Assembly (NCBI RefSeq): GCF_002843425.1 | Contig: NZ_NKXO01000018.1 | Location: forward strand, 1 to 64,000 | Length of the DNA: 64,000 bases | Origin: Raineya orbicola | GTDB lineage: Bacteria > Bacteroidota > Bacteroidia > Cytophagales > Thermonemataceae | Reading direction: 5' to 3' | In this document: positions 39,095-44,150 of the stretch, in pieces | Numbering within the stretch: position 1 is the stretch's first letter | How the letters are laid out: the number at the start of each line of letters is the position of its first letter | The notes under the pieces: model-generated | What the model was told of the DNA's origin: nothing | Seen by the model: only the letters and a program-made list of their open reading frames with translations | Databases searched by the model: none | Program-made: the position numbers and the translations under genes

Positions 39095-42073
39095 ATGTAT
39101 AAAAAACTTGTAGTAGTAGCTTTATTGCCTGCTTTTATTCCTTTGTTTCATTTATTACAGCACAGAAAAGTAGTTACATTTGCAGAAAAATATATTGAGC
39201 CAAGTTTTGTTTTTTTTAGTCAAGAGGAGCGTTGGGTAGATAGTGTTTTTCGTAAGATGAGCCTTGATGAAAAAATCGGGCAACTTTTTATGGTGGCAGC
39301 CTATTCCAATAAAGACGAAAAACACTACAGAGAAATTGAAAAGTTCATCAAAGAGCATCATATCGGTGGTTTGATATTCTTTCAGGGTAATCCCTACAAG
39401 CAAGCCCAATTAACTAACCGCTATCAAGCTAAAAGCGAAGTACCTTTGCTAATTGCCATAGATGCTGAATGGGGCTTGGCAATGCGTTTAGATAGCACTT
39501 TGGCGTATCCTTATCAGATTACTTTGGGAGCTTTACGAGCTGAAAATGACTCTCTCATTGAAGTTATGGGTGAGCAAATCGGTAAGCAGTGCAAACGTTT
39601 GGGCATACACGTAAATTTTGCCCCTGTGGTGGATATCAACAACAACCCCGCTAACCCTGTGATAGGTTTTCGTTCTTTTGGTGAAAACAAAGAAAAAGTA
39701 GCTCGCAAAGGCATAGCCTATATGAAAGGCTTGCAGAAAAGTGGTGTAATGGCGGTTGCTAAACATTTTCCTGGGCACGGCGATACCGACCAAGATTCGC
39801 ATTACGCTTTGCCGCAACTCAAACATAGCACAGAGCGTTTGGATAGTCTTGAACTTTATCCTTTTCGTAAGCTCATTGAGGCAGGTGTGCAGGGCATAAT
39901 GGTTGCTCATCTGAATATTCCCGCTTACGAAACGCGTCCCAATTATGCTACAACACTTTCCGAAAATGTCGTGAAAAATCTGCTTACGCAAAAAATGGGC
40001 TTTTCAGGGCTGATTTTCACAGATGCCCTTAATATGAAAGGTGTTAGTGATTATTTTCCCGCAGGTGAATTGGAAGTTTTGGCTTTACAAGCAGGAAACG
40101 ATGTTTTACTTTTTCCAACCAATATCCCTTTGGCAGTGAAAGCTATCAAAAAAGCATTGAAAAAGAAGAAAATAAAAAAAGAAGTCTTTGAGCGAAGTGT
40201 CAAAAAAATTTTGAGAGCCAAGTACCGAGCAGGGCTACATCGCTACGAGCCTATTGCCTTGCAAAACCTCACTCAAGAACTTAATCCCGAAAAAGAGTTT
40301 GAAAAACTTACTGAAAAAATTTATCAGAAATCTATCACGTTGGCTTGCAATCAGGATAGTTTAGTGCCTTTTGTACATTTAGATTTGCATAATTTTGCTT
40401 CGGTGGCAATCAACGCAAATCCTAAAAACGAACAGGCTTGGCAAGAAATGCTTTCCAACTATACCGAATTTGAGCATATTGGTTTGCAAACTACCAAAGA
40501 AAACTGGCAAAATATTTCTGAAAAGTTACAAAAATTAGATAGCACTAAAACTTTAATTGTGGGTATTTTTGGAATGAGTAGGCTGGCTACTAAAAAATAT
40601 GGCATTGATAGCCTGACTATCAGAGCGGTAGAGCAAATTCAGCGTAGGCATAAACACGTTTTAGTATGTGTATTTGGCAATCCGTACAGTTTGCGATTTT
40701 TGAAGGCTCGCAATGCTTTGGTGGCTTATGAAGAGAATGAATTTACGCTTAAATACGTGCCGCAAATGATTTTCGGGGCTTTCGGAATAGAAGGACAAAT
40801 ACCTGTTTCGGTAGGAAATATTAAGGAAGGAGAAGGGCAAAAGACATTAGAAATAGCACGTTTGCAATATGGCTTCAGTCCTGAAAGTGTAGGAATGAGC
40901 AGTGATACGCTTCGTAAAATGGATACGCTCATTCAGAGTGCTATTTTGAATAGGGTATTCCCTGGTTGTCAGGTGCTTGTAGCTCGCAAAGGTAAGGTAG
41001 TTTGGCATAAAGCCTATGGCTATCACGCCTACGAAAGTACTCAAAAAGTAACTTTACAAAGCATCTATGATTTGGCTTCAATCAGCAAGGTAGCGGGTAC
41101 TACGCAGGCATTGATGTTTTTGTTTGATATAGGCAAATTAGACCTTTCGCTAAAAGCCGCTGATTATCTGCCCGAGCTTGCCAAAAGCAACAAGAAAAAT
41201 ATGATTATTCACGATATTTTGCTTCATCAGGCGGGGCTGAAACCTTATGAACTTTTTTACAAACGCACTTTGGGCAAAATGCGAGAACCTTCGGAAAAGT
41301 ATTTCAGCTATACTAAAAATGATACCTTCTGCGTACAAGTAGCTCCTAATTTATTTGCTCGTAAAGATATTGAAGAAATTGTTTGGCAATGGGTTATTCA
41401 GAGTGATTTGCTTAAAAAGAAAGGCAAGCGTTATCCTTACGAATACAGCGATTTAGGCTTTTTCATTATGAAAAGAATAGTGGATAAATTGCTCAACGAG
41501 CCGATGGATAAATTTTTAAGGCGAAACTTTTATCTACCTTTGGGGGCAAATACGCTTTGTTATAAACCTTTGGAACATTTTCCCAAAGAACGAATTGTAC
41601 CCACTGAAAATGATAAATATTTTCGCAGGGAACTTCTTTGGGGAACAGTTCACGACCCCACTGCCGCACTAATTGGCGGAGTAGCAGGACACGCAGGACT
41701 TTTTGGCACTGCCAACGACCTTGCCAAACTCTTGCAAATGAACCTTCAAAAAGGCTATTATGGAGGCATTCGTTATCTTGTTCCTGAAACTATTGAGCTT
41801 TTTACTTCACAAACTGATAGTCTCAATCGTAGAGGTTTGGGTTGGGATAAACCCCCGAAAGGAGCTATTTTTACTTATATTTCGCAATTTTCTACTCCCA
41901 AATCTTACGGACACGCAGGCTATACAGGCACAGTAGCCTGGGTAGATCCTGAAAAAGAACTCATTATTATTTTTCTTTCCAACAGAGTTCACCCCAACGA
42001 TAATAATCGTATGATTAGACAACATACGCGTCGTAAGGTGCAAGATATTGTTTATCAGGCACTATTGGAGTAA
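39095..42073 (+). CDS. GH3 N-acetylglucosaminidase (NagZ-like) fused to a class C beta-lactamase-type serine hydrolase
   Basis: 992 residues from the ATG at 39095. A hydrophobic N terminus (KLVVVALLPAFIPLFHLL) acts as signal or anchor. GH3 domain (about 45-400): the NagZ active site KHFPGHGDTDQDSH (223-236) supplies the His-Asp dyad, and the nucleophile is Asp310 in FTDALNM. A linker resembling GH3 domain 2 (about 400-590) follows. The C-terminal beta-lactamase/transpeptidase domain (about 600-985) has SISK (SxxK, 662-665), YSD at the YxN position and GHAGYTG at the KTG position. NagZ removes GlcNAc from muropeptides. The second domain could be a D,D-peptidase, esterase or amidase. The fusion points to peptidoglycan turnover in the periplasm. 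Its 3' end overlaps the Lrp gene by 12 bp. Confidence 0.92.
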   Translation: MYKKLVVVALLPAFIPLFHLLQHRKVVTFAEKYIEPSFVFFSQEERWVDSVFRKMSLDEKIGQLFMVAAYSNKDEKHYREIEKFIKEHHIGGLIFFQGNPYKQAQLTNRYQAKSEVPLLIAIDAEWGLAMRLDSTLAYPYQITLGALRAENDSLIEVMGEQIGKQCKRLGIHVNFAPVVDINNNPANPVIGFRSFGENKEKVARKGIAYMKGLQKSGVMAVAKHFPGHGDTDQDSHYALPQLKHSTERLDSLELYPFRKLIEAGVQGIMVAHLNIPAYETRPNYATTLSENVVKNLLTQKMGFSGLIFTDALNMKGVSDYFPAGELEVLALQAGNDVLLFPTNIPLAVKAIKKALKKKKIKKEVFERSVKKILRAKYRAGLHRYEPIALQNLTQELNPEKEFEKLTEKIYQKSITLACNQDSLVPFVHLDLHNFASVAINANPKNEQAWQEMLSNYTEFEHIGLQTTKENWQNISEKLQKLDSTKTLIVGIFGMSRLATKKYGIDSLTIRAVEQIQRRHKHVLVCVFGNPYSLRFLKARNALVAYEENEFTLKYVPQMIFGAFGIEGQIPVSVGNIKEGEGQKTLEIARLQYGFSPESVGMSSDTLRKMDTLIQSAILNRVFPGCQVLVARKGKVVWHKAYGYHAYESTQKVTLQSIYDLASISKVAGTTQALMFLFDIGKLDLSLKAADYLPELAKSNKKNMIIHDILLHQAGLKPYELFYKRTLGKMREPSEKYFSYTKNDTFCVQVAPNLFARKDIEEIVWQWVIQSDLLKKKGKRYPYEYSDLGFFIMKRIVDKLLNEPMDKFLRRNFYLPLGANTLCYKPLEHFPKERIVPTENDKYFRRELLWGTVHDPTAALIGGVAGHAGLFGTANDLAKLLQMNLQKGYYGGIRYLVPETIELFTSQTDSLNRRGLGWDKPPKGAIFTYISQFSTPKSYGHAGYTGTVAWVDPEKELIIIFLSNRVHPNDNNRMIRQHTRRKVQDIVYQALLE

Positions 42074-42526
42074 AAGCGGACGATTCAGACGCTCTTCTAA
42101 TGAAATAAATGTTTCGGTACGTTGTACTCCCGGTACGGTTTGAATTTTCTCATTCAAAACCTCTCGCAGATGCTTGGTATCTTTGCAAATGATTTTCGCA
42201 AAAATACTATACGCCCCTGTGGTGTAATGCAAATTTACTACTTCGGGAATTGCCTCTAAGGCTTCTACGGCTTCCTCATAAAGCGAACTTCTTTCTAAGT
42301 AAATTCCAATAAATGCCGTAATATCCCAGCCTAATTTGTGATAATCTACTTTGAGCGTGGCTCCTTGCACTACTCCCAAACGCTTGAGTTTTTCCATACG
42401 TACGTGTACGGTACCATTGGAAACAAAAGCCTTTTCTGCTACACTGCTGTACGGCTGATTAGCATCTTGCAAAAGTAAATTGATAATGCGATAGTCGGTT
42501 TTGTCAAATTGATAATTTTCAGACAT
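42062..42526 (-). CDS. Lrp/AsnC-family transcriptional regulator
   Basis: 154 residues from the ATG at 42526 (MSENYQFDKTDYRIINLLLQDANQPYSSVAEKAFVSNGTVHVRMEKLKRLGVVQG); ten codons of longer frame precede it. N-terminal AsnC helix-turn-helix and C-terminal RAM ligand-binding domain (AFIGIYLERSSLYEEAVEALEAIPEVVNLHYTTGAYSIFAKIICKDTKHLREVLNEKIQTVPGVQRTETFISLEE). Probably amino-acid responsive. The upstream region holds repeated TTTTTTGAAA motifs that may be its operator. Convergent overlap of 12 bp with the GH3 gene. Confidence 0.93.
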   Translation of the reverse strand: MSENYQFDKTDYRIINLLLQDANQPYSSVAEKAFVSNGTVHVRMEKLKRLGVVQGATLKVDYHKLGWDITAFIGIYLERSSLYEEAVEALEAIPEVVNLHYTTGAYSIFAKIICKDTKHLREVLNEKIQTVPGVQRTETFISLEERLNRPLLLQ

Positions 42527-42537
42527 AACAGAAATGT

Positions 42538-42615
42538 GTTTTTGAAAATTTTTCAAATAAAATTAAATTTTTTGAAAAAATAATAATTTTTTGAAAGTTT
42601 TTTTGAAAAAATTTG
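42538..42615. promoter_or_regulatory. AT-rich repeated TTTTTTGAAA tract upstream of lrp
   Basis: At least four copies of T5-7GAAA and one inverted TTTTTCAAA occur within 78 bp between the Lrp gene and the tRNA-like RNA gene. Lrp proteins bind AT-rich phased sites, so autoregulation is possible. The downstream edge includes the TTTG of the RNA gene's putative promoter. This tract is part of the 391-bp gap 42527-42917, which also holds the RNA and its terminator. Confidence 0.45.
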
Positions 42616-42643
42616 CAACAAAATAGGCTTTCGTTTAATATTG
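42612..42643 (+). promoter_or_regulatory. Putative promoter of the tRNA-like RNA
   Basis: TTTG (42612-42615), 20 bp, TAATATTG (42636-42643; one mismatch to TAnnTTTG). Transcription would begin about 15 nt before the acceptor stem, leaving a short leader for RNase P. Confidence 0.45.
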
Positions 42644-42666: not shown

Positions 42667-42814
42667 TGTAGGGTGGTGAAATTTTGGCAGACACACCCTC
42701 CTCTCTCGGGGGCGGGGATACAGAAAGAAAGCTATGGCTCGGTAGGTGTAATTATTACGGCTACGAAGCCTTTTGCCTAATCTCCTCGTGAAGGTTCGAG
42801 TCCTTCCCCTACAG
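42667..42814 (+). ncRNA. tRNA-Leu-like RNA with a 77-nt structured variable region
   Basis: Acceptor TGTAGGG (42667-42673) pairs perfectly with CCCTACA (42807-42813), discriminator G. T8 G9, then D stem GTG / CAC with a GG-containing loop (AAATTTTGGCAGA), as in class II (leucine) tRNAs. Anticodon stem CCCTC / GGGGG has loop CTCTCTC (nominal anticodon CTC, pyrimidine at 37). T stem GAAGG / CCTTC has loop TTCGAGT. Between anticodon stem and T stem lie 77 nt (42713-42789) instead of about 13. They fold as a base stem CGGGGA / TCCTCG, a small AGC-TATG-GCT hairpin, and TAGG / CCTA enclosing GTAA-TTA-TTAC and GGCT-ACGA-AGCC. A terminator follows at once. It may be a tRNA-derived regulatory RNA or a tRNA pseudogene with an insertion; a normal decoding tRNA is unlikely. 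Confidence 0.7.
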
Positions 42815-42820
42815 CTACGA

Positions 42821-42851
42821 AAGGTTTGAATGAAAGTTCAAACCTTTTTTT
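42821..42851 (+). terminator. Terminator of the tRNA-like RNA
   Basis: 10-bp perfect stem AAGGTTTGAA / TTCAAACCTT with loop TGAAAG, ending in seven T. Confidence 0.9.
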
Positions 42852-42917: not shown

Positions 42918-44150
42918 ATGCTTATGCAACAGACTATTTCTGCTCAAAAAATCTGGCTTACCGTAATGGTAGCGGCTCTGGGATATTTTGTAGATATTTA
43001 TGATTTATTGCTTTTTAGCATTATTCGCATAGAAAGTTTGAAGGGTTTGGGCTATACCTCAGCCGAAGATATTGAAAACTATGGTCATTTGCTTATCAAT
43101 ACGCAAATGATAGGGCTTTTGCTTGGGGGGATTGTCTTTGGGATTTTGGGCGATAAAAAAGGACGTCTTTCGGTGCTTTTTGGCTCTATTATTACCTATT
43201 CGCTCGCCAATATTGCCAATGGTTTTGTAACAAGTATTGAGCAGTATGTTGTTTTACGCTTTATTGCGGGTATTGGGCTAGCGGGGGAATTGGGAGCAGG
43301 TATTACGCTGGTCAATGAAATAATGAGTAAAGAAAAACGAGGTTACGGAGTTACGGTAGTAGCTTCGGTAGGGCTTTTGGGGGCGGTAGTAGCTTCATTG
43401 ATAAGTAACAAGTTTGGCTGGCGACCTGCTTTCTGGATAGGCGGAGGTATGGGAATTGCCCTGCTACTTTTGAGAGTTGGTGTAGCTGAATCAGGTCTGT
43501 TTTCACAATCCAAAGTAGAAGGTGTGCAAAGAGGCAATTTTGCTATGATTTTCAACAATTCTAAAAGGTTGAAAATTTATCTCTATTCTATTATTTGCAC
43601 CATTCCTGTGTGGTATGTGATAGGACTTTTAGTTTCTTTTTGTAAAGAATTTGGCGAGGCTTTGCAAATGTCTGAAATTCCTTTACCTCGTTGGGCGATA
43701 CTTTTTGCTTATTCAGGCTTGAGCGTAGGAGATATGGCAAGCGGACTGATAAGTCAATGGACACGCTCTCGGAAAAAAGTACAATACTTGTTCCTAACGC
43801 TTGGGGCTATTTTTAGTGCCATTTATCTGTTGAGCGGCGGTATTTCATTGGAGATGTTTTATGCTTTGTGCTTTGTATTGGGAGTAGCTTCGGGGTATTG
43901 GGTGATTTCCATTACTTCGGTTTCGGAGCATTTTGGTACAAATTTGAGAGCCACCGTAACTACTACGGTGCCAAATTTTGTAAGAGGCTCTTTTGTACTC
44001 GTTGATGTGAGTTACAACCTGCTTAAAAGCTCTTTGGGAAGGTTGGAAAGTGCGGCTGTGGTAGGAGCAGTGGTATTTGTACTGGCGATTTGGTCAGTAA
44101 GGCAGTTAGAAGAAACTTTTGGCAAAGACCTTAACTTTCAGGAGTATTGA
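42918..44150 (+). CDS. MFS transporter
   Basis: 410 residues with about twelve transmembrane helices. The conserved loop 2-3 motif is GILGDKKGRLSVLFGS (G-x-x-x-D-x-x-G-R), and RFIAGIGLAGELGAGITLVNEIMSKEKRG resembles the metabolite:H+ symporter / sugar-porter groups (A-E-x-R-G-like turn). The first helix has GYFVDIYDLLLFSI, where the Asp residues are typical of organic-acid symporters. Substrate unknown. Second gene after the tRNA-like RNA terminator; monocistronic. Confidence 0.9.
   Translation: MLMQQTISAQKIWLTVMVAALGYFVDIYDLLLFSIIRIESLKGLGYTSAEDIENYGHLLINTQMIGLLLGGIVFGILGDKKGRLSVLFGSIITYSLANIANGFVTSIEQYVVLRFIAGIGLAGELGAGITLVNEIMSKEKRGYGVTVVASVGLLGAVVASLISNKFGWRPAFWIGGGMGIALLLLRVGVAESGLFSQSKVEGVQRGNFAMIFNNSKRLKIYLYSIICTIPVWYVIGLLVSFCKEFGEALQMSEIPLPRWAILFAYSGLSVGDMASGLISQWTRSRKKVQYLFLTLGAIFSAIYLLSGGISLEMFYALCFVLGVASGYWVISITSVSEHFGTNLRATVTTTVPNFVRGSFVLVDVSYNLLKSSLGRLESAAVVGAVVFVLAIWSVRQLEETFGKDLNFQEY

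Follow-up and report, generated by a model that had tools for sequence, protein, structure and literature searches.

Comparison across genomes places an RNA encoded by Raineya orbicola in a conserved RNA family of many Bacteroidota and large phages, a kind of tRNA-like non-coding RNA that is, as far as we found, previously undescribed. The RNA lies in the window, the whole 64,000-nucleotide stretch of contig NZ_NKXO01000018.1 that was analyzed, and has the cloverleaf features of an elongator tRNA: a 7-bp acceptor stem, D, anticodon, and T arms, G18G19, and TTCRA, with T8 and G9 between the acceptor and D stems. The first-pass annotation of the window had pointed to these stems, the GG loop, the T arm, and a 77-nt gap, all of which are located where it placed them (Table 1). 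It further knew of no described bacterial tRNA with so long a variable (V) arm. ARAGORN leaves the giant form in the window uncalled, and searches of Rfam 15 at gathering and loose thresholds gave only chance matches at the window RNA, with no family reaching its gathering score. We found no published description of the family in a search of journal articles, mostly open-access ones, and a review of odd tRNAs (PMC7609411), queried for Bacteroidetes and for long arms, gave nothing except tRNA-Sec.

Table 1. Features of the giant-V-arm RNA and its surroundings in the window
Feature	Position	Strand	Support or remark
Giant-V-arm tRNA-like RNA, predicted mature form U1 to G73	42667..42814	+	107.9 bits with family covariance model R1
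Acceptor stem TGTAGGG/CCCTACA	42667-42673 / 42807-42813	+	U1-A72, G2-C71, U3-A70 nearly invariant in family
D arm, stem GTG/CAC, Leu-type loop with GG	42676..42694	+	Covarying stem: ATG/CAT, TTG/CAA, ACG/CGT, GTG/CAC
Anticodon arm CCCTC-CTCTCTC-GGGGG	42696..42712	+	Family: U35 C36 invariant, C38 195/196, pyrimidine at 37
Giant variable arm of exactly 77 nt, from anticodon stem to T stem	42713..42789	+	
V-arm base stem P1, GGGG pairing with CCTC	42714..42717 / 42784-42787	+	Covariation
P2 helix, AGA pairing with TCT	42722..42724 / 42781-42783	+	Family pairing counts at loop-adjacent pair
Internal loop, 5' side AAGAAA (family RAYAAA)	42725..42730	+	
Hypervariable distal arm P3	42731..42776	+	7-102 nt across family
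Internal loop, 3' side CTAA	42777..42780	+	CTAA in 195/196 members
T arm GAAGG-TTCGAGT-CCTTC	42790..42806	+	
Discriminator G73 (invariant) and encoded C74	42814..42815	+	As in these genomes' real tRNA genes
Putative Bacteroidota-type promoter TTTG-N20-TAATATTG	42612..42643	+	Sequence; one mismatch in window copy versus TAnnTTTG
Intrinsic terminator AAGGTTTGAA...TTCAAACCTT, then T run	42821..42851	+	Sequence
Lrp/AsnC-family regulator gene, divergent	42062..42556	-	Pfam PF01037 1.1e-20, PF13412
MFS transporter gene, other flank of RNA	42918-44150	+	

In 59 related genomes, a DNA search turned up homologues along the full length of the RNA, as well as tandem arrays, in other families of the order. 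A structural finder (acceptor, D, anticodon, and T arms, with V length left free), run on the DNA-search matches and on a pattern scan of GTDB genomes, recovered at least 196 chromosomal members in at least 133 loci, with up to 6 copies per locus. Carriers belong to the Cytophagales, Chitinophagales, Saprospiria, Ignavibacteria, and Kapabacteria; the 80 matches listed from the GTDB scan come from Cytophagales, Chitinophagales, Saprospiraceae, Ignavibacteria, Kapabacteria, and other or unplaced Bacteroidota-type MAGs. Within the order, 114 of 146 genomes and 61 of 80 genera carry the RNA, and several of the non-carriers are small (1 to 1.6 Mb). Many free-living Bacteroidota in a sample of the phylum lack it. 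BLAST searches of plasmids with the window RNA and of INPHARED phages with the L205 RNA returned nothing. An extra one or two U residues occur in the 5' strand of the T stem (GGA-U-GG/CCUCC, GAG-U-GG/CCCUC) at loci of different lineages (L235, L240, L246, L229, L242, L022, and L034).

Folding energy alone is weak evidence here (z of -1.4, unexceptional), so the case for the family rests on comparison. Among 66 diverse members, 99.5% of cells in the tRNA stems and V-arm base are paired, against 93.4% in shuffles; double-sided changes occur in 15 of 24 pairs, against 6.5 in shuffles; and all five stems covary. Pairing falls to 52 to 65% in slid-register controls. Since the finder itself requires pairing, sites anchored by sequence only served as a bias control, and the seven acceptor pairs still form at 140 of 145 of them. 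A decayed tRNA gene or a chance fold could be read into the weak z-score and into two degenerate copies found elsewhere (L103 and L156). Order-wide conservation and covariation refute this idea, to which we give almost no credence, and with it falls the suggestion in the first-pass annotation that the tRNA gene had been disrupted. Another of its suggestions, a new tRNA-derived RNA, is supported.

The V region is 39 to 133 nt long throughout the family, one short-V relative excepted, versus a normal limit of ~24 nt for elongator tRNAs. Its parts follow a fixed order: N44 (mostly T), a 4-bp P1 (GGGG/CCCC, GAAG/CTTC, GGTG/CACC, or mixed), usually 3 to 5 unpaired nucleotides, a 3-bp P2, the internal loop RAYAAA/CUAA, P3, and G-T48. 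The P2 pair adjoining the internal loop is paired in 190 of 194 members (GC in 149, CG in 29, AT in 10), compared with a mean of 131 and a maximum of 143 in 1,000 shuffles, and the first P3 pair forms in 186 of 194, in every orientation. In the window copy, the base stem proposed at first pass (CGGGGA/TCCTCG) had the right register, the family core being GGGG/CCTC plus AGA/TCT; the inner TAGG/CCTA stem is not shared by the family. The placement of P1, with a single unpaired G before T48, reproduces the arrangement in tRNA-Leu(GAG) of the same genome. The great variation in insert length might be expected of a tRNA with a spliced, intron-like insert, an option also raised at first pass. However, the insert is a structured variable arm, laid out as in tRNA-Leu (T44, stem, G, T48) and closed by a base stem that covaries, its internal loop is conserved, and Rfam finds no group I or group II intron in the window RNA, all of which makes splicing very improbable. 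Given that the family covariance model also matches real tRNA-Leu at ~55 to 60 bits, an origin of the family from tRNA-Leu is likely.

Two further observations concern the arm. A motif, GGGTTGACCAC (or GGGGTAGACCAC), recurs in P3 of many members from different clades (L040, L041, L072, and L159, and phage copies L232, L237, and L239). In phage copies L233, L228, L243, L238, and L236, both sides of the internal loop have changed together (AAUAGA or AAUAGG / UGAA), perhaps as a tandem G-A form of the motif.

The putative promoter and the strong terminator noted at first pass are present as sequence in the window, and both signals are enriched across the family. TAnnTTTG lies within 70 nt upstream of 83 of 192 members (7 expected), and terminator-like hairpins follow 112 of 190 (8 in shuffles). 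All members that reach position 74 encode C there, as do 149 of the 150 real tRNAs that were parsed (the remaining one is incomplete at its end), while positions 75 and 76 are free. This pattern agrees with 3' maturation of the tRNA type and with CCA addition.

We asked which tRNA identity the conserved bases resemble. In PMC9976931, the strong Asp determinants are G73, G34, U35, C36, and C38, with G1-C72 and G2-C71 conserved in bacteria. The family has G73 in every member reaching that base, G2-C71 in 219 of 219, U35 and C36 in all 196 loops, C38 in 195, and G34 in 168; the first pair is U1-A72 (218/219). Its commonest loop, CUGUCUC, is the tRNA-Asp loop of the same genome (CUGUCAC) with A37 changed to U. 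This loop stays constant on anticodon stems that vary with full compensation (for example, CCGTC/GACGG, CCCAC/GTGGG, and CCCGA/TCGGG). Among tRNAs at these loci, the discriminator is G73 in 6/6 Asp (one of them the short form described below), A73 in 10/10 Glu, and A73 in 16/16 Leu, and only tRNA-Asp combines G73 with such a loop among the tRNAs of these organisms and phages. A Glu identity, to which the nominal anticodon CTC of the window copy would point, was rejected because Glu tRNAs here carry A73. The "leucine-type" label given at first pass fits the body, with its D arm, its V arm of class II, and the model match to tRNA-Leu, and fails for identity, where G73 and U35-C36-C38 are those of tRNA-Asp.

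Features needed for decoding are less well kept. Position 37 is U in 186 members, C in 8, G in 2, and never A, so that a purine stands there in only 2 of 196 (the window copy has T37); position 33 is U in 154, G in 30, and A in 12, U33 having been lost in several lineages; and position 34 drifts, with C in the window copy and Hymenobacter relatives and A or U elsewhere. The doubt about decoding voiced at first pass is well founded on these counts. Judged from its bases, the element set is Asp-like, with U1-A72 and the variable position 34 as exceptions, while decoding features have been lost. An ordinary decoding tRNA-Asp (or tRNA-Glu, with CUC, in the window copy) bearing an exotic variable arm would explain the 7-nt loop, the Asp anticodon of most members, and the ARAGORN name tRNA-Asp(atc) for the short-V form. 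Against it stand the pyrimidine at 37, the G or A at 33 in 42 of 196 members, the drift at 34, and the normal tRNA-Asp that the genome and four phage arrays also encode, and we regard it as improbable.

That short-V form, in genome G019, is a natural deletion: a 77-nt version, in a genus where two other genomes have 114-nt forms. It has acceptor TGTGGGG/CTCTACA, anticodon stem CTAGC/GCTAG, loop CTATCTC, V region TACAATT, G73, and C74; the loop and acceptor end have outlasted both the V arm and the original anticodon-stem sequence. No further short-V forms were found in 296 genomes of the class. In PMC9262613, the entries for Hymenobacter sp. DG5B include a "tRNA-Asp-AUC", left unstudied there, which is possibly the short form.

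The RNA has a conserved partner, a regulator. In 56 of 133 loci (at least 133 in all), the first upstream gene belongs to one orthologous Lrp/AsnC family, always divergent and usually 50 to 240 nt away, an arrangement that spans Ignavibacteria to Cytophagales. Among 392 genomes of the phylum, 47 have the Lrp orthologue (E < 1e-43), of which 42 have the full RNA and 1 the short form, and 0 of the 345 others have the RNA, an association scored on the best candidates per genome and inflated by shared ancestry. Every RNA-carrying genome of this sample has the orthologue. Upstream of the RNA, toward the Lrp gene, AT-rich dyads such as TTG-N9-CAA are overrepresented (24 versus 5.7 expected). Several AT-rich TTTTTTGAAAAA-like dyads also occur between the Lrp gene and the RNA in the window (42540-42615), where they are possible operators.

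The RNA also occurs on 27 viral contigs, in 23 distinct copies; some of these contigs are 112 to 326 kb long, and some carry terminase, portal, RNA ligase, and QueC genes, a gene content that fits tailed phages. Phage loops are CUGUCUC in 20 copies, UUGUCUC in 2, and CCGUCUC in 1. In 16 contigs the RNA lies within 11 nt of a tRNA, often with spacers of 5 to 10 nt, in arrays of up to ~20, of which several include tmRNA and four an ordinary tRNA-Asp. Such close packing among tRNAs suggests that tRNA-processing enzymes excise the RNA. A second tRNA-like element was seen in phages, with constant ends (AGTCAGGTGGCGRAATTGGTAGACG ... ATACAGGTTCGAATCCTGTCCTGACT) and a hypervariable middle in which no anticodon arm is obvious. 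It lies on the minus strand of L228 (6143-6262, 6478-6616, and 7683-7830), in L232, L233, and L242-L245, and at ~100 more viral loci; 135 distinct copies of 83 to 281 nt (median, 112) occur in 106 loci, up to five per locus, and ARAGORN calls none of those checked.

The phage copies bear on two further explanations. As an uncharged decoy or riboregulator, the RNA would mimic tRNA-Asp, and the enzyme that it titrates would be AspRS, an anticodon nuclease, or a modification enzyme; phages would carry it to blunt host anticodon nucleases or to keep that balance. An invariant loop on varied stems, presence in phage arrays, tandem copies (up to 6, suggestive of a dosage effect), and the Lrp link would all suit such a role. 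We consider it doubtful, since the conservation of G73 and C74, along with an intact elbow, points to use of the 3' end, and carriage by most genomes of the order is unlike that of typically patchy defense genes. Alternatively, the RNA might be linked to translation through a special ribosomal job, such as tmRNA-like rescue, recoding, or an Asp-specific event, with the giant arm binding a dedicated factor. This option, which draws on the full tRNA elbow and on phage copies beside large tRNA sets and sometimes tmRNA, seems to us unlikely: inspection showed no tag-like reading frame, position 37 carries a pyrimidine, several lineages have lost U33, and the RNA is absent from many free-living Bacteroidota.

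The reading that we prefer, with a confidence somewhat short of even, is that the RNA mimics a tRNA but does not decode, with AspRS probably charging it for a role away from the ribosome. After excision and CCA addition, the ordinary AspRS would charge the RNA with aspartate via G73, U35, C36, C38, G2-C71, and mostly G34; a dedicated AspRS paralogue was not seen, as a search for a duplicated class IIb synthetase gave only three PF00152 (Asp/Asn/Lys-type) proteins in the genome. U37, the loss of U33 in several lineages, and the giant arm would keep the RNA from the ribosome; the divergent Lrp regulator, presumably amino-acid responsive, would set its expression; and the V arm with its RAYAAA/CUAA loop would be a docking platform for a partner. 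Whether charged or not, the RNA might then serve a purpose other than elongation: donating aspartate, or sensing or titrating aspartate/AspRS status. Against charging with aspartate, U1-A72 replaces the G1-C72 of bacterial tRNA-Asp, position 34 is variable, the giant V arm may hinder AspRS, and, because U37 is conserved yet does not count among the Asp determinants, the loop may be read by some other ligand. More tentative still is the wider proposal of an aminoacylated, non-decoding RNA class, core to much of the Bacteroidota and their phages, that delivers or senses aspartate outside elongation under a dedicated Lrp/AsnC regulator.

Standard annotation is blind to this tRNA-shaped RNA of most Cytophagales and of large-phage tRNA arrays. 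If charged, it would represent a non-translational aminoacyl-RNA system, which would be categorically new if aminoacylation with a non-translational use is shown; if a decoy, it would represent a phage-host RNA conflict of a new kind. In both cases, the bases to test can be read from the sequence.

Among known RNAs, the family resembles bacterial class II tRNA-Leu in its D arm, its elbow, and the layout of its V arm (T44, stem, one unpaired G, T48); from this tRNA it differs in G73 rather than A73, the loop CUGUCUC, and the length of the V arm. With tRNA-Asp(GUC) it shares G73, G2-C71, U35, C36, C38, and a loop identical except at position 37, but its body is class II, its first pair is U1-A72 rather than the bacterial Asp G1-C72, it has U37, and neither G34 nor U33 is obligatory. 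tmRNA is likewise tRNA-like and likewise found in phage tRNA arrays; in contrast, the family has D and anticodon arms and no tag frame by inspection, and the window RNA has no match to RF00023 in a search that detects true phage tmRNAs. tRNA-Sec and allo-tRNAs are also natural tRNAs of unusual architecture with a long V arm, whereas the acceptor branch of the family is a normal 7/5 one, its V arm is far longer, and it has no matching codon role. Bacterial Y RNAs (YrlA) are non-coding RNAs that mimic tRNA; no Ro60/Rsr-like gene was noticed among the genes neighboring our RNA, and, unlike Y RNAs as generally described, the family has a complete cloverleaf with an anticodon arm.
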